From an uncultured Ruminococcus sp. (GTDB lineage Bacteria; Bacillota; Clostridia; Oscillospirales; Ruminococcaceae): 46,719 bases of DNA. This document shows positions 1-46,719 of the stretch, one piece after another. The notes beneath the pieces were generated by a model that worked only from the letters and a program-made list of their open reading frames with translations, was not told the origin of the DNA and searched no databases. Every line of letters starts with the position of its first letter. Positions within the stretch are counted from its first letter, which is position 1. The position numbers and the translations under genes were made by a program. The stretch is from contig CADAGC010000021.1 in NCBI GenBank assembly GCA_902787365.1, forward strand, positions 1 to 46,719, given 5' to 3'.

Positions 1-1
1 G

Positions 2-1192
2 AAATCTATGCTTCAAAAAATGTTCCCGCAAAATGGTGAGAGTGTTCCGGAAATCAGATTCGCCGGATTTACCGATGCTTGGGAACAGCGTAAGTTAGGT
101 GATGTGTTCGTAGAATACTCTGAAAAAGGTCACGATGAACTACCTCCGCTTACAATTATTCAGGGTAAAGGTACTATCCTTAGAGAAGAATCTGAGCGTA
201 ACCTTATATATGATAAATCTGGATTGAAGAATTATAAACTTGTCAATCAAGATGATTTTATTCTTCACTTACGTTCCTTTGAGGGAGGCTTAGAAAAGGC
301 TAATTCACGGGGAATTGTGAGTCCTGCCTATCATATTTTCCACGGTGAAAATGCTGATACAAGATTTTATTATCCGTTTTTCAGGTCTAAAAATTTCATT
401 TCGGTTTTGCTGAAACCACACGTTTATGGTATCCGTGATGGTAAAAGCATTGACGTGGAAGGAATGAAAACTATTGATATTCCTTACCCGACAATTGAAG
501 AACAGAATAAGATTGGCGACTATTTTGCTCGTCTTGATTCCCTTATCACCCTTCATCAGCGTGAGTATTTTTTGTTCGATTTTAGCGGTGAAAGTGCTAA
601 AACAGCTCAATATACACTTTCTTGGGAACAGCGTAAGCTGTCTGAAATATCCGAAAAAGTATCTAAGAAAAATCAATATATGGTGGTTGATGAGGTGTTT
701 ACTAACTCTGCGGAGTTTGGCATAATATCACAGAGAGACTACTTCGACAAGGATATTGCAAACAGCGAAAACATAGACGGTTATTATATTGTTGAGCCTA
801 ATGACTTTGTATATAATCCTCGCATTTCCACTCTCGCTCCATTCGGTCCGGTAAGACGAAATAAGCTCGATAAATCGGGAGCAATGTCGCCTTTGTACTA
901 TGTCTTTCGGACACATAATGTGGATTGTGGATACCTTGAATATTTCTTCAAGACCAACAGGTGGCATAGCTTTATGCACCTTAACGGAAACTCTGGCGCA
1001 AGGTCTGATAGATTTGCAATTCGTGATGAAGTTTTCAGGGATATGCCAATTTCTATGCCACAAGATATAGTGGAGCAGAAAAAGGTAAGCGACTTCTTTT
1101 CCACGCTTGAACTGGCAATCACCCTTCATCAGCGTAAATGTATAAATATATTTATATTATACCACAGAAAGCTATGCTTTTCAATAGATTAA
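2..1192 (+). CDS. hsdS: Type I restriction-modification specificity subunit (HsdS), 5' end cut by window
   Basis: HsdS chooses the DNA target of a Type I enzyme and docks the HsdM and HsdR subunits. Two target-recognition domains are visible, about residues 20-190 and 205-385 counted from the ATG at 8. Each opens with a WEQRKL motif and ends in a conserved TLHQR segment. The reading frame stays open to the left edge, and the first residues (MLQKMFPQNGESVPEIRF) resemble the linker usually found between HsdS domains, so the true start is probably outside the window; hsdM and hsdR would lie there too. The second TLHQRK is followed by an odd hydrophobic tail (CINIFILYHRK) rather than the usual LEKLQ-type helix, and the central helix after the first TLHQR is also atypical. 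Both oddities start at a repeat, suggesting recombined or decayed ends. The family call is solid; an intact function is uncertain. Confidence 0.85.
   Translation, partial: KSMLQKMFPQNGESVPEIRFAGFTDAWEQRKLGDVFVEYSEKGHDELPPLTIIQGKGTILREESERNLIYDKSGLKNYKLVNQDDFILHLRSFEGGLEKANSRGIVSPAYHIFHGENADTRFYYPFFRSKNFISVLLKPHVYGIRDGKSIDVEGMKTIDIPYPTIEEQNKIGDYFARLDSLITLHQREYFLFDFSGESAKTAQYTLSWEQRKLSEISEKVSKKNQYMVVDEVFTNSAEFGIISQRDYFDKDIANSENIDGYYIVEPNDFVYNPRISTLAPFGPVRRNKLDKSGAMSPLYYVFRTHNVDCGYLEYFFKTNRWHSFMHLNGNSGARSDRFAIRDEVFRDMPISMPQDIVEQKKVSDFFSTLELAITLHQRKCINIFILYHRKLCFSID
78..1135 (+). repeat. Paired direct repeats inside hsdS
   Basis: A 17-bp repeat (cttgggaacagcgtaag) occurs at 78-94 and 621-637, and an 18-bp repeat (atcacccttcatcagcgt) at 545-562 and 1118-1135. 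They encode the conserved WEQRK and ITLHQR segments flanking each target-recognition domain. Such repeats are the known sites of domain shuffling in phase-variable hsdS loci; shuffling here is inferred. Confidence 0.8.
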
Positions 1193-1337
1193 GTGCTATT
1201 TTTACCCATTATTATGGTGTTTTTCAATAATAACAGGTCAAAATGACCACATCAACTGTGTATATATAATTACTTTCAATAAAACAAATAAGTATTAAGC
1301 ATATCTTGACTATACCAATAATGCATAAAAACATCAA

Positions 1338-1370
1338 AAATGAGCCTCGGTTTTTGACCTTGGCTCATTT
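1338..1370. terminator. Bidirectional terminator between hsdS and the Fic fragment
   Basis: Perfect 9-bp inverted repeat AAATGAGCC (1338-1346) and GGCTCATTT (1362-1370) with a 15-nt loop. T-rich sequence follows on both strands, so it can serve the plus-strand hsdS and the minus-strand gene ending at 1381. Confidence 0.6.
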
Positions 1371-1380
1371 GTCTTTATTC

Positions 1381-1686
1381 CTAAAGTATCCGCAGATACA
1401 TATCCAGTCGTGAGTTGATATACCCCGCAAACTGCTTCTCCATAGCGGAGAGATCGTGCTTGATATGATACGCATCAAAAGCATTGTAATATGAAAGACT
1501 GTCTGAAAACTTGAAGCCGATCGGCGGGTATCCGGCTTTCATTAGCTCGAGGTTTACAAGTAGACTCCTTGTCCTTCCATTTCCGTATTGGAACAATATC
1601 AACCTCTGCGGAATAATATTTTCAGAATTAGCGGAATAATAGTGTGGTGGTAGTATTATTGCACATCTTTCTTGACTATCACCCAA
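1381..1686 (-). pseudogene. Fic-family C-terminal fragment
   Basis: The 101-codon frame matches the end of Fic/DOC proteins: YGNGRTRSLLVNLELMKAG corresponds to the active-site loop (HPFxxGNGRxxR), followed by a typical YPPI-YYNAFDAYH-RLDMYL tail. Fic enzymes transfer AMP or other phosphate groups to proteins. Here the HPF part of the motif reads ILF, so the catalytic His is missing, and everything upstream of the motif is absent. The upstream residues (MGDSQERCAI) do not look like Fic and overlap the end of the next minus-strand gene in another frame. I read this as a decayed remnant joined to unrelated sequence. An unusual small protein is possible but less likely. Confidence 0.65.
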
Positions 1687-2081
1687 TAATATGATATGGA
1701 GACTACAGTTAGATCTGTAGCCTCCAAAACTATATGCGGAACAAACACTATATTCCTATCGATTTTGATCTCATACTCAAATACAAAGCATACCCTTCGG
1801 GAAATAGAAACACAATCAAAACCTACCACAGGATTACCATCCATCATACAAGGCTTGGCTCCAAGTACTTTGAGTATTTCCTTGATTTCTTTGCAAGCGT
1901 AAATATCTACAAGGAAAGTATTGCAAGGAGCAGAATACTCTAAATGCGGATTGTACGACACTGTGACATACGGCTCACCGGTTTTTCTAAAAGCCTTAAC
2001 GGCCAACAAAGGGCTGTTAAGCTGATACACGCTGATCTTAAAAACCAACTCTTCATTACAAACTTTATATATTTCTTTCAT
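1656..2081 (-). CDS. DUF4313-like mobile-element protein, altered C terminus
   Basis: A 141-residue frame with a good start: GGAG sits 9 nt before the ATG at 2081. The first 90 or so residues (MKEIYKVCNEELVFKISVYQ, then AVKAFRKTGEPYVTVSYN) resemble the small DUF4313 proteins common on conjugative elements of gut Firmicutes; their function is unknown. From about residue 95 the sequence turns hydrophobic and unlike that family, and the end overlaps the Fic fragment by 31 nt in another frame, so the 3' part may be replaced or frameshifted. No membrane segment or catalytic motif is clear. The family call is tentative and based on pattern only. Confidence 0.5.
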   Translation of the reverse strand: MKEIYKVCNEELVFKISVYQLNSPLLAVKAFRKTGEPYVTVSYNPHLEYSAPCNTFLVDIYACKEIKEILKVLGAKPCMMDGNPVVGFDCVSISRRVCFVFEYEIKIDRNIVFVPHIVLEATDLTVVSISYYWVIVKKDVQ

Positions 2082-2113
2082 TATATTTTACTCCATAAAT
2101 TTTATAATTTTGC

Positions 2114-2932
2114 ATGCTCTCTAAAGTATCTGTTATTAATTCTCTAATCCATATGATACTGAAACAGGCTGAAAGTGAGCTGTTGATACCTTATAATCCG
2201 GCTGCCAGAGCCAAGTCGCCAAAGGTTCAAAAAACTCATGCTAATTTCTTTAATACTGATCAGCTATGTGATATATTAAATGTAGTTGATGATCTGCCAA
2301 TAAAATGGAAAACACTAGTGAATCTTTTGATCGTTTTGGGCGGTCGGCGTGGCGAGGTTTTAGGTATAAACTGGGCAAATGTTGACTTTGATTTGAAGCG
2401 TATATACATCAACAAATGCGTCTATTACGAACCAGATATAGGACTATATATCGATAAGCCCAAAAACGAAAAATCGGTAAGATATATTAATCTTACCGAT
2501 AAGATGATTGATCTGTTGAAGCAGTATAAAAAGGAGTATTATGATCCTTTAAAACAGTCGTGCATTGATACATGGAATAGTACAAAATCGCTGCAAGGAG
2601 ACATTATAGATGACTTTCTTTTTGTCAAGGACAGCGGCAAAAAAGTAGGTGCTCCCATGCACCCTGACAGCGTCACACAGTACTGCGATAACCTGAGTAA
2701 AAAGCATAATTTACCTCATATTAATCCGCACGCTTTTCGTCATACAGCAGCTAGTTTTTTAATCTTTAATGGTGTTGATACAGTCAGCGTAAGCGGTTAT
2801 TTAGGTCATGCAAGCCCTACGACAACAGAGACAATTTACGCTCATATTTTAGCAGATGCAAGGAGCCGTAATGCAGAAGTGATCGGTGCTGTTTTGGACA
2901 GCATTGATGAAAAAAGATCTGCAAAAAAGTAG
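2114..2932 (+). CDS. Tyrosine recombinase/integrase lacking its N-terminal arm
   Basis: Catalytic domain of a phage/Tn916-type site-specific recombinase. The Arg motif LGGRRGEVLGINW (about residues 75-87), HxxR box HAFRHTAASF (about 209-218), GYLGHASPTTTETIYAH with the His and the nucleophile Tyr near the C terminus are all present. Only 272 residues remain where this family has about 380-400. The frame closes with a stop at 2105, just upstream of the ATG, and no ribosome site is visible. The N-terminal arm-binding domain and part of the core-binding domain are therefore lost; the protein begins in the middle of the core-binding helices (ILKQAESELLIPYNPAARAK). It is the only integrase seen in the element, so excision may depend on another enzyme. 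It could be unexpressed. Confidence 0.85.
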   Translation: MLSKVSVINSLIHMILKQAESELLIPYNPAARAKSPKVQKTHANFFNTDQLCDILNVVDDLPIKWKTLVNLLIVLGGRRGEVLGINWANVDFDLKRIYINKCVYYEPDIGLYIDKPKNEKSVRYINLTDKMIDLLKQYKKEYYDPLKQSCIDTWNSTKSLQGDIIDDFLFVKDSGKKVGAPMHPDSVTQYCDNLSKKHNLPHINPHAFRHTAASFLIFNGVDTVSVSGYLGHASPTTTETIYAHILADARSRNAEVIGAVLDSIDEKRSAKK

Positions 2933-2942
2933 TGCAAAAGTA

Positions 2943-2971
2943 TTGACTCTTAGTATAAAATATGGTATAAT
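2943..2971 (+). promoter_or_regulatory. Sigma-A promoter for the candidate small RNA
   Basis: TTGACT (2943-2948), 17-nt spacer, TATAAT (2966-2971), with a TGG just before the -10 box. Predicted transcription start about 2978. It lies just after the integrase stop and 250 nt before the relaxase gene. Confidence 0.7.
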
Positions 2972-2977
2972 AATTCT

Positions 2978-3066
2978 AGAAAATCAAGCGGTAGCACACC
3001 AAAAACAAAGGTGAAAATCCGTCTATACTCTTGTAATTAGTATGGACGGATTTTCACCTTTTTGTT
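2978..3066 (+). ncRNA. Candidate small RNA of about 90 nt (or relaxase-leader attenuator)
   Basis: The segment begins at the predicted start of a near-consensus promoter and ends in a very strong hairpin with a T run. It holds no credible open frame. About 30 single-stranded nucleotides precede the hairpin. It may be a free small RNA of the mobile element, or a leader in which the hairpin limits read-through into the relaxase gene 150 nt downstream. I do not recognise a known RNA family. The promoter and terminator are seen; the RNA itself is inferred. Confidence 0.45.
3007..3063 (+). terminator. Strong hairpin terminator ahead of the relaxase gene
   Basis: Perfect 17-bp arms AAAGGTGAAAATCCGTC (3007-3023) and its complement (3045-3061), with the arms continuing imperfectly inward. 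T-rich sequence follows. The A-rich left flank could let it work in both directions. Confidence 0.75.
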
Positions 3067-3218
3067 TATTATAAGCCGTCGGCAGACGCCCGAAACGGAG
3101 CAAAGCAGAGTGTGGATTTATCTGGTGCAGACAGATAAGTCCGAGGGCACATACTTATGGTGTCAATCGATGTTAATTGTTAAGTATTATAGGCTGCAAA
3201 TGAAAGGAGTTGGTTGAT
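3067..3218. other. Possible origin of transfer (oriT) upstream of the relaxase
   Basis: This gene-free 152-nt stretch directly precedes a MobV relaxase gene, the usual place for its cognate oriT. It contains a small hairpin, TTATCTG (3118-3124) and CAGATAA (3132-3138). I could not identify a nick-site consensus, so the call rests on position alone. Confidence 0.3.
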
Positions 3219-4367
3219 ATGGGAGTAACCATAGGGATGCCTTGCCTCAAACTCAACAATGCAGGCAGGACAAGCAAACATTGCGGCGATTTTAAAAAGG
3301 TTGCCGAAGAAGCTCTCGCAGAACGTCACGGACGAGATTCTGATATTAATCAGGAGAGAACAAAAGACAATGTGTTATTCGGTTATAAGACCGCTTCAGA
3401 ATTGATAGCATATTCTGATAAACACATGCGAGAACTGACTGAAATACTCAGAAAAAACGGAGAGCGTGGTATAAGGCGTGATGCTGTAAAAATGTGTGTT
3501 ATAATAATCAAGCCTCCCGCTGTCTGGATAGAAAGTCTGAGCAGAGAAAAACAGCTTCAGTTTTTCAACGATTCACTTGAAAAAATTAAAGAGATCGTTG
3601 GCGAAGAAAATGTAAAAGCCGTTGCAATACACTTTGATGAACTAGCACCGCATATGCATGTATTCTGGGAACCTATGACCCCTGATGGACGGCTCTGTGC
3701 GAAGGATATGCACGGGTTAAGATTCTTGGGAAATCTTAATCGAGAAATGCCTAAATATCTTAGGTCCAAGGGTTGGGAAATTGATGATTGCAAAGCTTAT
3801 GACGCAATAGAAGAACAAGAGAAAAAAACAAAGCTTGGCATGGAAGGATATCAAAAATACTTGCAAGAAAAGCGTGCTAAGAACGGGCGAGATAGCTTCA
3901 AATATAAAGCACAAATTGAAGCTGAAAAAGATGACCTCATAAGAACTGTTTCTGTTGAAAAAAACAAAAGTGTGAAATCTATTTTTGGACGAAACAAAGA
4001 AGTGAAAAAAACAGAATCAGAGATTGAATTTGAACAGCTAATCTTATTAGCCCAAGCAGTCCTCGGTGATAAAGATAAATCAGAAAAACACAAAAAAGAA
4101 TTACAAGAATTAAAGGATAATGAGGAGGTGTACATTAGTAAAAAAGCCGAAGAGATTGCTGAAAGAATGATCTCAAAACGAGAACTGGAAGCGATCCGTT
4201 CAGAGAATATAATCAAGGATAAATTATTAAAACTTGAATCGATTATTTCTCAGAATCTTGGTATGTCACTTGATGATTTTATCATCGAAATCACAAAGCA
4301 GAACGATCCAAAAACAATTATAAAAGAAAGGCGGAAAAACCATGAAAAATATCGAGAACAACAGTAA
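3219..4367 (+). CDS. mob: MobV-family relaxase (Pre/Mob plasmid mobilization enzyme)
   Basis: Relaxases of this family nick oriT and pilot the DNA strand into a recipient using a borrowed conjugation channel. The metal-binding signature HFDELAPHMHVFWEP (residues 138-152) fits the MobV HxDExxPHxHxxxxP motif. The N-terminal catalytic region covers about residues 1-210, and the C-terminal 170 residues are Lys/Glu-rich with probable coiled coils, as in the family. I start at ATG 3219, 9 nt after an AAAGGAG site, rather than the in-frame TTG at 3210; the product is 382 residues. No coupling protein or type IV secretion genes are in the window, so the element is mobilizable rather than self-transmissible as far as can be seen. 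The gene overlaps the next one by 26 nt. Confidence 0.9.
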   Translation: MGVTIGMPCLKLNNAGRTSKHCGDFKKVAEEALAERHGRDSDINQERTKDNVLFGYKTASELIAYSDKHMRELTEILRKNGERGIRRDAVKMCVIIIKPPAVWIESLSREKQLQFFNDSLEKIKEIVGEENVKAVAIHFDELAPHMHVFWEPMTPDGRLCAKDMHGLRFLGNLNREMPKYLRSKGWEIDDCKAYDAIEEQEKKTKLGMEGYQKYLQEKRAKNGRDSFKYKAQIEAEKDDLIRTVSVEKNKSVKSIFGRNKEVKKTESEIEFEQLILLAQAVLGDKDKSEKHKKELQELKDNEEVYISKKAEEIAERMISKRELEAIRSENIIKDKLLKLESIISQNLGMSLDDFIIEITKQNDPKTIIKERRKNHEKYREQQ

Positions 4368-4683
4368 ATTGAAAGACATAAATAATGATAACATTAGCAT
4401 CTTGCTTGAATATGAAAAGCCCCATGATCAGATACCGCAGATCAGAACAACAGAAAGTGTTTTATCTCGTAGTTTCCCCGAGTGTTTTTCCATACTTAAA
4501 AATGAAAGAAAAAAAGAAAAAAATATCAACCATATAAAGCTTGAGTGTAATCATTTTTGTGTTCATATTTCCAAAGACTCAGATATGAGCGTAATTAAGT
4601 TCAAGAACGGAGCGTTATCATCAGATGAGTTGGCTGCTTTGCTTTACGATCTTCACAGATCATTTGAACTTTTACTGAAATGA
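4342..4683 (+). CDS. Hypothetical protein overlapping mob
   Basis: 113 residues, not recognised. It starts inside the 3' end of mob after a purine-rich site (AAAGGCGG), so it is probably translationally coupled to it. The N-terminal third is Asn/Asp/Ile-rich and the middle Lys/Glu-rich. The last 45 residues look folded (SVIKFKNGALSSDELAALLY, then a helix LHRSFELLLK). There is no signal peptide or membrane segment. It is the last gene before the attachment site. A role in mobilization is only suggested by position. Confidence 0.6.
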   Translation: MKNIENNSKLKDINNDNISILLEYEKPHDQIPQIRTTESVLSRSFPECFSILKNERKKEKNINHIKLECNHFCVHISKDSDMSVIKFKNGALSSDELAALLYDLHRSFELLLK

Positions 4684-4762
4684 TTTTTTGTGGACTATTT
4701 GTGGACTACTGAGGCAAAAAAATAGGTTATTTTACGATCTGTCACGAAAAGGTGCAATCAAA

Positions 4763-4785
4763 AAAACGCCGTAAATAGGCGTTTT
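4763..4785. terminator. Hairpin after the last element gene
   Basis: AAAACGCC (4763-4770), 7-nt loop, GGCGTTTT (4778-4785). It lies 80 nt after the hypothetical gene. Upstream are two copies of tgtggacta, at about 4689 and 4701, of unknown meaning. Confidence 0.5.
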
Positions 4786-4823
4786 GAGACTGGTTTGAAC
4801 TGAAAGAATAAAATCAAATCTTC

Positions 4824-4869
<46 letters not shown>

Positions 4870-4876
4870 AGTAAAT

Positions 4877-4912
4877 ACGCCGTTTGGAGAGATTCAAGCG
4901 GCGTTATTTTTT
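4877..4912 (+). terminator. Terminator of the original tRNA transcript
   Basis: ACGCCGTTT (4877-4885) pairs with AAGCGGCGT (4896-4904) with one mismatch, followed by a T-rich run. It sits 8 nt after the CCA end, as expected for the chromosomal tRNA unit before integration. Confidence 0.65.
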
Positions 4913-4945
4913 GCCCCAAAAAGGCCAAAAGTTCAATAAAAATCC

Positions 4946-4979
4946 AAAAGCAGGCTGTATTTCAAGCCTGCTTTTTTTA
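4946..4979. terminator. Bidirectional terminator downstream of HPr
   Basis: Perfect 11-bp arms AAAAGCAGGCT (4946-4956) and AGCCTGCTTTT (4965-4975) with an 8-nt loop. A T run follows on the plus strand and a shorter one on the minus strand. It closes the minus-strand unit ending at 4996. Confidence 0.75.
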
Positions 4980-40857: not shown

Positions 40858-42894
40858 ATGGACAGCAGCAATATGAACATTGTGACGACAGGTGATGCGG
40901 GCAAGATAAAGCACGCAAGACCAAGAGCAAGGGTCGAGGGCGACAACGTTCAGAATGTTGATTTTCTCGACATAGTGAACAGACTTTCGGCAGCAGAGCA
41001 GTCGCAGGTGAGTGGTAAGACAGCAAAGATAAAGCAGACAGGGTTGACGCAGGAAGCCGCAGGCGCACAGGGGCTTTCAGGTTTAAGTGAGGTCGAAAGC
41101 GCACAGACCGACGAAAAGGTGCTGGGTGAGCTTGATGAGATAATCAGCGAATACGGTGCCGAAAACCTTAATGCGGATATACTTATGGAGCTTATGTCGA
41201 TGTATACCACCGACACCTCGGTGCAGACGCTCGTAAGCTCTGATGACCCCTTGCAGACAGTTCAGAGCAGCCTTTACAGCGCAGTTCTTGACCAGACCCC
41301 CATACTGAGTACGGGCGGCGAGATGATAGACGAGATAGCAGACGGCTATTTTGACGACCTGCTGAGCGTTATGAGCTCATCAAAGGCGGTAAGCCACCTG
41401 CTTGAAGCTTTAAGCACGGTGCAGGACGCAGACGAGTTTGAGAAAGCCTTGCAGACGATATCGAGCATAACGGTAACGAGCGAGGTAAACGAGGTTGACA
41501 GAACTGTAAATGCACTGAGCGAGCAGCTCAACCTGTCAAAGGCAGTAAGAAGCGCAAAGGCGAGCATAGAAAGCGGCGAGATGCCGGTGCAGACGTTTGC
41601 ACAGACCGATGAAGCACCCATTATCGGCAACGGCGTTTTAACGCAGACTAACGCACAGCCCACGCAGCAGACACAGCCCACACAGAATGCAACACCGCAG
41701 CCGGTACAGCCTGCAAATATAGTGCAGGAGGTAAGTCCGGAAAATGTGGTGAACACAGCACCCGTGCAGACAGCACAGCCCGAGCTGGCAACACAGCAGA
41801 CAACGCAGACGGCACAGCAGACGGCACAGATGGCACAGCAGACGGCACAGCCGGAGCGAGCGGCAGAAGAAGGGTTCGCACAGCCCTTGTTCACGCAGCA
41901 GACGGCACAGCAGCCGCAGCCGATACCGCAGGCACAAGCACCCACGCAGGCGGCAGATACGGCAGTACAGCAGCCCGAAGGAGTAATGCTCACGGCGGCA
42001 CCCGAGCAGCCCACGCAGGCACAGCACCCAATGCCCGCAGCAGCAGACAGGTCAGCCGACACGCAGCAGACAGCGCAGCCGCAGAGCTTTGAAGCAGCAA
42101 TGCCGCAAAGCGATGTAAGCGAGCAGGGGTACGCACAGCCCCTTGACACAACGCAGACACCTAAGGCAGCTGACACACAGCAGGCAGCAGACGCACAGCA
42201 GACACAGCAGCCCGCAAATACCGAAAGTAATGCACCCATACAGACGGTAAGAACGCAGGGCAGAGCACAGGTCGCAGACACCAAGGCACCCGAAAGGGCA
42301 GCTCCCGCAAGGAACACACAGCAGACACAGGCAGCACAGCCTACTGACAATGCACCCGACAGTACGGCAGCGCAGGCTATGGGCTTTGTGGACTATAACA
42401 GGGGCATAACACCCAAAGAAGTGATGACGCAGGGCGCACCCGAGGAGAGGGCGGTATTCAACCAGACACTCGACCTGTTATCAAGGGCGATAACCGAGGA
42501 GAGGCAGCTCTACACAGCAAGGCTTCACCCCGAGGGCTTAGGCGAGGTCATCATCAGAATGGAAAAATCAAGCGCAGGCGTGGTATTTGATATTTTGGCG
42601 ACAAACGAGCGCACAGCACAGCTCATCAACCAGAAACTCGCACAGCTTCAGACGGGCATGAGTGAATACGAAGCCAAGATAAACCCCGCAGTAGTTACGT
42701 CTTCAAGCAACGCAGAGAGTATGTCAGGCTTTACGTTTGACGACTTTACAGGCGGATTCGGCGGCAGAGGAGAAAATGCCTACAGCGGCAACAGGCAGCG
42801 TGCAGGCACAAGATACAACGAAGCGGGCGAGGACGAGCGTGAGGCTAAGACCACAGGCTACAGAACTACAGATGTGCTTAACAGAACAATTTAA
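40858..42894 (+). CDS. fliK: Flagellar hook-length control protein FliK
   Basis: Secreted ruler that sets hook length and switches export. 678 residues: a helical N-terminal part, a Gln/Thr/Ala/Pro-rich ruler (about 255-520), and the conserved C-terminal domain (about 560-625: LHPEGLGEVIIRMEKSSAGV, LINQKLAQLQTGMSEYEAKI). AACGGGGAGGTG precedes ATG 40858. The ruler is longer than in many FliK, but this region varies freely between species. Confidence 0.88.
   Translation: MDSSNMNIVTTGDAGKIKHARPRARVEGDNVQNVDFLDIVNRLSAAEQSQVSGKTAKIKQTGLTQEAAGAQGLSGLSEVESAQTDEKVLGELDEIISEYGAENLNADILMELMSMYTTDTSVQTLVSSDDPLQTVQSSLYSAVLDQTPILSTGGEMIDEIADGYFDDLLSVMSSSKAVSHLLEALSTVQDADEFEKALQTISSITVTSEVNEVDRTVNALSEQLNLSKAVRSAKASIESGEMPVQTFAQTDEAPIIGNGVLTQTNAQPTQQTQPTQNATPQPVQPANIVQEVSPENVVNTAPVQTAQPELATQQTTQTAQQTAQMAQQTAQPERAAEEGFAQPLFTQQTAQQPQPIPQAQAPTQAADTAVQQPEGVMLTAAPEQPTQAQHPMPAAADRSADTQQTAQPQSFEAAMPQSDVSEQGYAQPLDTTQTPKAADTQQAADAQQTQQPANTESNAPIQTVRTQGRAQVADTKAPERAAPARNTQQTQAAQPTDNAPDSTAAQAMGFVDYNRGITPKEVMTQGAPEERAVFNQTLDLLSRAITEERQLYTARLHPEGLGEVIIRMEKSSAGVVFDILATNERTAQLINQKLAQLQTGMSEYEAKINPAVVTSSSNAESMSGFTFDDFTGGFGGRGENAYSGNRQRAGTRYNEAGEDEREAKTTGYRTTDVLNRTI
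41640..42360 (+). repeat. Low-complexity cagacg/gcacag tract in fliK
   Basis: Short in-frame repeats such as cagacggcacag, clearest around 41806-41851, encode the TQQTAQ/TAQQ ruler. Slippage here would change ruler length without breaking the frame if whole units move. Confidence 0.7.
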
Positions 42895-42911: not shown

Positions 42912-43439
42912 ATGGCAATAGACAACGTAAATTCCGGCTATACAGCGTCGAGAAATTACACAGACCTTATGAACGGTACAGCCAAGACCACCAGCGCAGA
43001 GAGGCTTTACAACAATGTCAAGTTCTCTGACGGCAAAGAGGATCAGGTAGAAGTTCAGGATTTTCTCAACCTTATGGTGACACAGCTTACCAATCAGGAT
43101 TTTATGAACCCTGTTGACGATACCCAGTATCTTTCACAGCTGGCACAGTTCTCATCTATGAGCGCTATGCAGGAGCTTGCATCATTCTCAAAGCAGAGCT
43201 TTGCTATGAGCTATCTCGGCAAGGAAGTAACGGCTTCCGTTTTCAATATAGGCGGTGAGGTAGAAACCACCACAGGCAAGGTAACGAGCGTTTCCCTGGT
43301 GGGCGATGACTACAAGTTCACAGTAAACGGCAAGGAATTCTCGATGAAGGACATAAAGAGCGTTTCCGACACAGCAGCACCCGCTGAGCAGGAAAACACA
43401 ATAAAGACAGAGGCGGCAGCCGACACGCAGAATACATAA
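42912..43439 (+). CDS. flgD: Flagellar hook assembly protein FlgD
   Basis: Scaffold cap for hook polymerisation. 175 residues. Signature segment DFLNLMVTQLTNQDFMNPVDDTQYLSQLAQFSSMSAMQEL; then SYLGKEVTA and a small beta domain. AAAAGGAGGAAAAGC precedes the start. An acidic, low-complexity tail (TEAAADTQNT) ends it. Confidence 0.93.
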   Translation: MAIDNVNSGYTASRNYTDLMNGTAKTTSAERLYNNVKFSDGKEDQVEVQDFLNLMVTQLTNQDFMNPVDDTQYLSQLAQFSSMSAMQELASFSKQSFAMSYLGKEVTASVFNIGGEVETTTGKVTSVSLVGDDYKFTVNGKEFSMKDIKSVSDTAAPAEQENTIKTEAAADTQNT

Positions 43440-43498: not shown

Positions 43499-43882
43499 AT
43501 GGATATTAATATGCTAAGGCTCACGGCGCCGATAACTACGGGTATTCCGCAGACAAGTACAGCAAGCGTTAACGACAGCATAGCGACAGCGAACTTTGAC
43601 CAGGTGCTCAAAAGCCAGTTACAGTCCAGCGGGCTGAATTTCTCAAAGCACGCAGTCAACCGTGTGGTCGAGCGAAACATCAATGTTTCGGACGACAATA
43701 TGGAAAGGCTCAATGCAGGCGTTGAGATAGCCAGGGAAAAGGGGCTTGACGACACGCTGATACTTGTAGACAGTTCGGCGTACATAGTAAGCGTGAAAAA
43801 CAACACGGTAATAACCACAGTTTCAAATGAGGAACTTGTGGGCAACTGCTTTACAAACATCGAAGGAACGGTTATAGTATAA
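43499..43882 (+). CDS. Flagellar operon protein (TIGR02530-type)
   Basis: 127 residues. FSKHAVNRVVERNINVSDDN, then AREKGLDDTLILVDSSAYIV and SVKNNTVITTVS, match the conserved small protein found between flgD and flgE in many clostridia and bacilli. Its exact job is unknown; a role in hook assembly is assumed from its place. GGGAAAGGAG lies upstream. Confidence 0.85.
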   Translation: MDINMLRLTAPITTGIPQTSTASVNDSIATANFDQVLKSQLQSSGLNFSKHAVNRVVERNINVSDDNMERLNAGVEIAREKGLDDTLILVDSSAYIVSVKNNTVITTVSNEELVGNCFTNIEGTVIV

Positions 43883-43990: not shown

Positions 43991-46330
43991 ATGATAAGAA
44001 GTTTATATTCAGGCGTTGCAGGTATGACTACCCAGCAGACAAAAATGGACGTTATAGGTAACAATATTTCAAACGTATCGACCTACGGCTTTAAGGCAAG
44101 CCGTGTTACATTCAGAGATGTTTATTATCAGACATCAAGAGCAGCAACAGAGTCAACAGCAGCCAAGGGCGGTACTAACGCCGTTCAGATAGGCTACGGC
44201 GCTAAGATAGGCTCGACTGACGTTAACCAGTCAACATCAGTTATGGCAACAACAGGCCTTGCGCTTGACGCTGCTATCACAGGCGACGGCTACTTCCAGG
44301 TAATGGACGGCGACGGCAACATATTCTACACCAAGGCAGGTATGCTCGACGTTGACGCTGAGGGCAACCTCGTTGATATCAACGGTAACTTCGTGCTCGG
44401 CGTTTCGGGCAACAATATGAACCAGGGCGCTTCCTCACAGAGGATAAGGATCTCTCTTCCTTACGAGAACCCCTCTGTTTCATCAGCAAGCGACACTATA
44501 AACGGCATCAACATCAAGGTAAGCTCCAGCGCTGAGAACGCAAACGGCAACCTTTCATTCAACTTCGTTTCAAGCTCCAACATCCCGATAGGCCAGAAGG
44601 CTGAGGCTGTTGTATCTTCAAACGCTATCACCATAACTCTCAACTCCAATGAGGAGTTTGCATCGCTCAATGATCTTGAAAATGCTGTAAATGATGCTAT
44701 CACAGCAGCAAACGGCGGTGTTCCTCACCCCGCAGGCAATTTCAGGATAGACGTTGACTCGGCAGCAGTATTCACTAACCCCCTCACGGGCGACCAGATA
44801 GTAGGCTCGAACTTCGGTGTAAAGTCAGGTTCTGTGCCGCTGCCCGCAACTATGGGCAAGGCCTTCTCTGTAAAGAGCGTAGGTGACGGCTTCAGCAATG
44901 ACCAGCCTATGGATTTCACTATCACAGTAAATGATGCGGCAGGCACTTGCACTATCACATCGGGCAATTACAGCGCAACAATAAACAAGAGCCAGATGGA
45001 GACTTCCGGTTCGGTAGTTATGAGAAATCAGGCGGCAGGCGCTGATGAAGACGATAACTTCGTACTCACATTCCCTAACTGGAGCAATATAAGCACCTAT
45101 GCAGGCAATCACACCGGCACAGAGAATGCTATCCCCTCAAAGCCCGCAGAGAACCTGGGCCTCGGCTCGACTTCATTTGCGCTTAAGGGCGGTACATCGG
45201 GCGGCGCTCAGACATTTGCCGACCTGACAGGCGTGGCTATAGGCTACAACGGCATTCTCTACGGCACACACCCCTCACTGGGCACTATAGAGCTTGGCAG
45301 AATCGACCTTGCAACATTCGACAACCCCGCAGGTCTTTCGCAGATAGGCTCTACATACTTCCAGAGAACAGTTAACTCGGGTGAGCCTCACCTGTGCATA
45401 CCCGGCGAGGACGGCTCGGGCCAGATCCTTCTTTATACCTCTCCGGACTTAAGGCACTGGACACTGCTGTCCAGGCTTGCAAGAAGTGAAGGGCGGCTCG
45501 GCGGCATGTGGGAGTGCCCGGATTTCTTCCCGCTGGACGGAAAGCACGTGCTCATCACCTCCCTTATGGATTTGAAGCCGACGGGCAGGGAGTTCCGCGG
45601 GGGCAGCGCACCGGCATGCTTCATCGGAAGCTTCGACAGGGAGACGGGTGCCTTCGATTATTCGGAGAGTGATGTCCGCGCAGTCGACTACGGCTTCGAT
45701 TTTTACGCGCCGCAGAGCATGGAGACGCCCGATGGCAGGCGGGTGATGACTGCCTGGATGTACAGCTGGGACAGCTCCCTTCTCGTGCCCGGGGCGGAGT
45801 GGGCCGGACAGATGACCGTGCCGAGAGAGCTCTTCCTTAAGGACGGAAGGCTCTGCCAGAGGCCGGTTCGCGAGCTTGAGAATTACCGGGGAGAGAAGGC
45901 TTCCGCGGAGGCAGAGCTAACCAGGGAGTTCAGGGAGCTCCCGGGAATCCGCGGACGGATCGCGGATCTGACTGTCACGCTTGAGGATGCGGACAGGTCG
46001 GATTACTGCCTGCGCATCGCCGCGGACGGGACAGGGGAGTGCTTCACCGAGTTCCGCTACAGCGCCCCGGAGAGGACGCTGACTCTAGACCGGAGGGCGA
46101 TGCTTTCTCCCGCCGATGTGAACGGAATCCGGGTGATTGATGTTGAGCCTGCCGGGGGAAAACTCACGCTCCGCTTCATCCTGGACAAGTATTCCGCCGA
46201 GCTGTTCATCGGTGATGGGGAGAAGGCTGCGAGCCTCATGATCCTCACGGATCCCGCGGCGGACGGCATCCTCTTTGCCGGTTCCGAGGGCGCGCGTGTG
46301 AGCGCGGAGATCTACGGACTCTCTCTGTAA
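43991..46330 (+). CDS. flgE: Chimeric frame: flagellar hook protein FlgE joined to GH32 C-terminal half
   Basis: Residues 1 to about 476 are hook protein FlgE: IRSLYSGVAGMTTQQTKMDV, IGNNISNVSTYGFKASRVTF, the rod-hook beta domains, and the penultimate DNPAGLSQIGSTYFQRTVNSGE region. A normal FlgE would continue for about 60 residues with a GALEMSNVDL-type coil; that is missing. Instead, from about 45410, the frame enters a GH32 sugar hydrolase with different codon use. AACGGAGG supports the start at 43991. A true gene fusion of a hook subunit with a cytoplasmic fructosidase makes no structural sense, since the FlgE C-terminal coil is essential. An assembly chimera is the better reading. Confidence 0.8.
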   Translation: MIRSLYSGVAGMTTQQTKMDVIGNNISNVSTYGFKASRVTFRDVYYQTSRAATESTAAKGGTNAVQIGYGAKIGSTDVNQSTSVMATTGLALDAAITGDGYFQVMDGDGNIFYTKAGMLDVDAEGNLVDINGNFVLGVSGNNMNQGASSQRIRISLPYENPSVSSASDTINGINIKVSSSAENANGNLSFNFVSSSNIPIGQKAEAVVSSNAITITLNSNEEFASLNDLENAVNDAITAANGGVPHPAGNFRIDVDSAAVFTNPLTGDQIVGSNFGVKSGSVPLPATMGKAFSVKSVGDGFSNDQPMDFTITVNDAAGTCTITSGNYSATINKSQMETSGSVVMRNQAAGADEDDNFVLTFPNWSNISTYAGNHTGTENAIPSKPAENLGLGSTSFALKGGTSGGAQTFADLTGVAIGYNGILYGTHPSLGTIELGRIDLATFDNPAGLSQIGSTYFQRTVNSGEPHLCIPGEDGSGQILLYTSPDLRHWTLLSRLARSEGRLGGMWECPDFFPLDGKHVLITSLMDLKPTGREFRGGSAPACFIGSFDRETGAFDYSESDVRAVDYGFDFYAPQSMETPDGRRVMTAWMYSWDSSLLVPGAEWAGQMTVPRELFLKDGRLCQRPVRELENYRGEKASAEAELTREFRELPGIRGRIADLTVTLEDADRSDYCLRIAADGTGECFTEFRYSAPERTLTLDRRAMLSPADVNGIRVIDVEPAGGKLTLRFILDKYSAELFIGDGEKAASLMILTDPAADGILFAGSEGARVSAEIYGLSL
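45395..45430. other. Probable chimeric junction
   Basis: Protein similarity changes from FlgE to GH32 around PGEDGSGQILLYTS, and codon use changes at once: left side rich in ata, aag, aga; right side rich in cgg, ccg, tcc, gcgg. The shared stretch gacggctcgggc could be a homology that misled assembly or, less likely, a recombination point. Confidence 0.75.
45421..46330 (+). pseudogene. 3' portion of a GH32 beta-fructosidase (sucrose-6-phosphate hydrolase-like) gene
   Basis: About 300 residues from the second half of a GH32 enzyme, which hydrolyses sucrose, sucrose 6-phosphate or fructans. ILLYTSPDLRHWTLLSRLA and MWECPDFFPLDG (catalytic acid/base Glu) come first, then the FDFYAPQSMETPDGRRVMTAWM blade, and the C-terminal beta-sandwich (EFRYSAPERTLTLDR; FILDKYSAELFIGDGEKAAS). 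The nucleophile motif (WMNDPNG) and RDP motif should lie before the junction and are absent. Base composition and Arg codons (cgg, agg, cgc) differ clearly from the flagellar genes, so it belongs to a different genome or a recently acquired segment. Confidence 0.85.
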
Positions 46331-46379
46331 GCCCCGGGCGGGAGGACTTCACCGCGGTACCAGATGCGTGGAGAGTAGA

Positions 46380-46719
46380 ATGTTTATTCTTTATTATCTC
46401 TTGTGGATCATATTGAACGGCAGGATCACCGTCGAGATACTCCTCTTCGGGATACCGGTGTCCGGGCTGATCTCCTTCGTCACCTACAGGGTGGTGGGTT
46501 ACTCCACGGAGAATGACCGGAAGATCGTGAGAAATCTTCCGCTGCTTCTCCGCTACCTCATCACACTGATAAAAGAGATCGCCAAAGCGGCAATATCGGT
46601 GATGGGCGTCGTGGCGAAACCTGGGGAGCGTCCCGAGCCGGTGATCGTCGAATTCCGCTCCGGACTGCCCACCCGCTTCCAGAACGTGCTTCTGGCCAAC
46701 TCCATCACGCTGACTCCCG
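46380..46719 (+). CDS. mrpE: MrpE/MnhE-type Na+/H+ antiporter subunit E, 3' end outside window
   Basis: Membrane subunit of a multi-subunit cation/proton antiporter. About 113 residues are visible from ATG 46380 (GGAGAG just upstream): two N-terminal membrane segments (about 3-40), RYLITLIKEIAKAAISVM, and the family-specific VEFRSGLPTRFQNVLLANSITLTP at the cut. It is too short for the usual list of frames, but the family match is good. High-GC codon use matches the GH32 part, not the Ruminococcus-like region; the remaining mrp genes would follow. Confidence 0.75.
   Translation, partial: MFILYYLLWIILNGRITVEILLFGIPVSGLISFVTYRVVGYSTENDRKIVRNLPLLLRYLITLIKEIAKAAISVMGVVAKPGERPEPVIVEFRSGLPTRFQNVLLANSITLTP

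Follow-up and report, generated by a model that had tools for sequence, protein, structure and literature searches.

In de Bruijn graphs, a chimeric node can form where two species have a short stretch in common, and a path may then pass between their genomes, as described for MetaVelvet-DL (PMC8171044). The inter-genome translocation misassembly of metagenome assemblies, treated in the metaMIC paper (PMC9661791), is a contig in which pieces of two genomes meet at a breakpoint. The contig analyzed here, C21, would likewise be composed of two genomes with a breakpoint between them; relative to the metaMIC description, it was diagnosed by gene content, synteny, and composition rather than by reads. 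As with the chimeric nodes, a short common stretch would have permitted the crossing, but the stretch described in PMC8171044 is common to evolutionarily similar species, whereas that of C21 would be a short coding motif in unrelated genes. On the sequence evidence below, we consider it highly probable that the fusion of flgE with a GH32 gene at the end of C21 is a misassembly joining DNA of two microbes, and neither a new protein nor a real feature.

The window comprises all of contig C21, from base 1 to base 46719, in a draft genome of 137 contigs (2.92 Mb, 93.75% complete, 0.21% contaminated). Among its last genes are flgD (42912-43439) and a flagellar gene with a TIGR02530 match (43499-43882). 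The last complete frame (43991-46330, 779 aa) is open through the flgE-GH32 join. At the other end of the contig, positions 1-4700 are GC-poor (0.33-0.41) and probably represent an integrated mobile element; this region encodes a type I restriction specificity protein (PF01420), a phage-type integrase (PF00589), and a Mob_Pre relaxase (PF01076).

The 5’ part of the long frame, 477 codons on the plus strand (43991-45421) ending in GEDGSG, is native flgE, identified by TIGR03506 and PRK05682 in an NCBIfam search and by DNA match to congeners. Positions 45000-45400 share 76-81% DNA identity with the flgE genes of five congeners. Both FlgE-type models reach residue 479 of the 779-aa frame, with the FlgE portion extending to about residue 477. 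Relative to the 529-aa protein of congener G006, the last 50 residues are gone; the frame therefore lacks the C-terminal segment of a native FlgE hook protein, in agreement with the original prediction that the hook protein loses this part.

The remainder of the frame (45422-46330, plus strand, GC 0.62) is the 3’ half of a foreign gene for a GH32 fructosidase/sucrose-6-phosphate hydrolase, including its stop codon. GH32 models begin at residue 474-475, with PF00251 positions 154-307 followed by PF08244, and scrB_fam also matches. The N-terminal catalytic domain of GH32 enzymes is a five-bladed propeller, and the frame does not contain it in complete form, since the PF00251 match starts at position 154 of 307. 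An mrpE/mnhE-like gene (46380-46719, plus strand; PF01899, E 4e-20) completes the foreign tail and is cut off by the contig end. Domain searches thus recover both elements originally read from the letters, i.e., the latter half of a GH32 fructosidase and an MrpE gene behind it.

GH32 by itself is no mark of a foreign tail, because the family occurs in the group and a separate, full GH32 gene is present on contig C13 of the same genome. A search of this genome for the N-terminal half of a second GH32 gene found none; besides the half on C21, only the full-length gene on C13 matched. The GH32 gene of G006 (G006:C2:2217956-2218766; L107, L110) matches in two pieces in different frames, as expected of a pseudogene with a frameshift or of a sequencing error. 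The MrpE family gave no match at E≤0.001 in the 20 relatives, six of which are less than 90% complete.

When the two halves are aligned separately, the flgE half matches five congeners and the GH32 half has no source among the relatives searched. The donor organism of the tail was not found among 80 GH32 loci, kept from at least 580 confirmed, among 20 relatives searched by DNA, or among 398 genomes of the phylum searched by protein. The closest GH32 relative among the 80 kept loci has 47% identity and is not the donor. A DNA search of the 20 relatives with positions 45430-46719 returned a sole match, one 60-base stretch in G006, and the protein search gave 17 genomes at E≤1e-40, including the genome itself, with the best of the 397 others at 41%. 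By tblastn at E≤0.01, the MrpE piece matches none of the 80 GH32 loci, and flgE-like sequence occurs in 0 of 80.

Composition changes at the join, as in an inter-genome misassembly. GC rises from 0.51 in the flgE part to 0.62 in the GH32 part and is 0.55 in mrpE (60% for the tail overall), while third-position GC is 0.55, 0.77, and 0.76, respectively. The tetranucleotide distance of the tail (0.600) exceeds that of all 441 sliding windows of positions 1-45400, whose maximum is 0.572 (window at 41201). Codon use shifts as sharply as first noticed: arginine is encoded by AGA 6, AGG 3, and CGT 1 in the flgE part and by AGG 12, CGC 7, CGG 6, AGA 2, and CGT 1 on the tail side, proline CCG goes from 2/16 before the join to 10/15 after it, and serine TCC from 5/51 to 6/21.

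Contig ends were also surveyed, for composition only, at both ends of 20 of the 137 contigs (40 ends). Against a broader native background, the distance of the tail is 0.591, just above all 40 of these ends (maximum 0.588). The end nearest to it, at 0.588, is the start of C18 (L132, G000:C18:1-1500), which is AT-rich with a GC of 0.34 over 1300 bases. Composition alone is no proof of foreign origin, because the C18 start is nearly as odd and the mrpE piece has a GC of just 0.55.

The switch between the parent genes is placed at about 45410-45422, because the FlgE models end at residue 479 and the GH32 models start at residue 474-475. The overlap of the two parts consists of the residues DGSG, and the corresponding junction stretch on the plus strand (45410-45422), gacggctcgggc and possibly the next c, could be shared by both parents, as indicated by GEDGSG/DGSG conservation. 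GEDGSG is present at the junction position in FlgE of all five congeners. In the GH32 set, 57 of the 80 loci align DGSG at residues 474-477, most others deviate from it (e.g., DDSG or DSSG), and the commonest alignment start is at residues 473-474 (42/80). This arrangement would explain the in-frame switch, as both genes can encode DGSG there in the same frame. Of the five congener flgE loci, two have the 12-base stretch originally proposed as common to both parents, gacggctcgggc, in exact form, and a third has it with one mismatch. The sharing is seen at the protein level (GEDGSG in 5/5 FlgE, DGSG in 57/80 GH32), the donor DNA not being among the sequences searched.

In congeners, flgE is an ordinary gene. 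A DNA search of the 20 relatives with positions 45000-45400 located it in five of six congeners, the sixth (G004) being 58% complete. All five loci continue normally past GEDGSG, with serine or proline, 49 further residues, and a stop; their open frames, measured from the preceding stop through the terminal one, span 531-535 codons. The flgE-GH32 fusion occurs in 0 of the 5. Downstream of flgE, G006 and G005 carry genes similar in size and sequence to those on contig C16 of the present genome, with names assigned by resemblance.

It is on C16 that the native operon continues. When G006 sequence from L009:1940 onward is used as query, its first 36 bases match C21:45386-45421 and its bases 150-4961 match C16:168-4937 (84% identity). 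The operon thus resumes near the C16 start. The intervening bases 37-149 (113 bases, about 38 flgE codons) have no match on either contig. C16 carries, in congener order, the flgE 3’ end, FlbD (PF06289), MotA (PF01618), MotB (PF13677), and FliM (PF02154). A native continuation elsewhere in the same assembly, a mark of inter-genome misassembly, is therefore present at C16:168-4937. The flagellar genes expected after flgE had been reported as absent; this is correct for C21 but not for the genome, and they are not lost, since flbD, motA, motB, and fliM are carried by C16. Dispersed intergenic repeats of TGCACAATGCACAATT-like units are found on C16 (L094:5731-5916) and on C21 (19700-19770, 25815-25885, 26005-26040, and 32370-32440), and 27 of 29 matches of the G006 operon query lie on or beside its motA-motB spacer, corresponding to such repeats.

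Judged from its sequence, the start of C16 is itself chimeric; here, a fragment resembling SNF2 helicases runs in frame into the final codons of flgE. Positions 1-207 (L094:1-207) form a single frame that ends in the native FlgE C-terminus (12 residues). The segment from residue 32 to 62 resembles SNF2 helicases (1z5z, E 5e-5; NF058637, E 4.5e-7), with up to 76% identity to plasmid-encoded helicases, and the helicase annotation was confirmed at locus L164. Neither the 20 relatives nor the remainder of the genome gave a match to the piece at E≤0.001. An additional join within the C16 start, near base 95-100, is likely, because the plasmid matches start at residue 34 (60/60 among the matches listed, the best 60 of 244) though the conserved region of whole SNF2 proteins extends further upstream. 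Among 19 PDB sequences the earliest start is residue 29, in one weak match. This join is less sure than the others, because Pfam returned no family at E≤1, SNF2 included, and a coverage of at least 80% of the frame is reached by one of the 244 plasmid records, which is not in the 60 listed. Read by eye on the minus strand, the first ~95 bases of C16 resembled the terminal part of a TRAP-transporter permease, but NCBIfam, Pfam, and plasmid tblastn do not support this assignment.

Overall, flgE is normal in congeners, the operon is distributed over two contigs, foreign sequence lies on both sides of the break, and a motif lies at the join. We infer that a k-mer shared between species in a mixed assembly graph was the cause; presumably, the genome is a metagenome bin and flgE is intact in the organism itself. 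The assembler would have followed the native flagellar operon into flgE, up to the short stretch encoding Asp-Gly-Ser-Gly. A second organism of the sample, richer in GC, would have a GH32 gene with the same stretch, and the assembler would have exited on the wrong branch, continuing for ~1.3 kb to the contig end. C16 would be the other side of the same break and an equally false start, running from unassigned DNA through the SNF2-helicase-like fragment to the last dozen or so flgE codons and on to flbD, motA, motB, and fliM, with ~113 flgE bases left out of both contigs.

Foreign sequence flanking the flgE break on both sides is also what a real insertion would give, i.e., a strain-specific foreign island within flgE, with ~113 bases deleted, a broken hook gene, and C21 and C16 ending at its true in-frame edges. 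The foreign composition of the C21 tail agrees with such an island. We nevertheless regard an insertion as very unlikely: both edges are fused in frame with a foreign gene, the C16 edge resembles a patchwork inside 207 bases, no mobile-element gene was identified among the two genes of the tail, and all five congener loci are normal. An assembler could produce false joins on either side of a break at a difficult spot; a single biological event is not expected to yield such a patchwork. The small chance that an insertion retains reflects a donor not found in the searches and an odd composition that is not unique to the C21 end.

Alternatively, the 779 codons open across the join could encode a true FlgE-GH32 fusion protein, such as a hook subunit displaying a fructosidase domain. 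The open frame across both joins also weighs somewhat against a misassembly, since it is expected in about 1 in 9 cases of blind joining, although more often if a coding motif is shared at the joins. Nevertheless, a working fusion protein is far less probable still than an insertion and close to negligible in our assessment, because the GH32 part enters its catalytic domain halfway (PF00251 position 154 of 307) and FlgE is deprived of its C-terminus (the last 50 residues); moreover, no GH32 locus carries flgE-like sequence (0/80) and no congener locus carries the fusion (0/5). The misassembly reading, and with it the original prediction of a chimeric contig end, is favored instead by the five normal congener genes, the operon resuming on C16 behind a false start of its own, and the foreign tail.

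Finally, an open frame is no proof of a real fusion in a draft genome, because joins at shared coding motifs can keep the frame. Run on this assembly, a gene caller would annotate the species with a hook-fructosidase fusion of 779 aa and with an MrpE, both probably false, and would overlook what is presumably an intact flgE.
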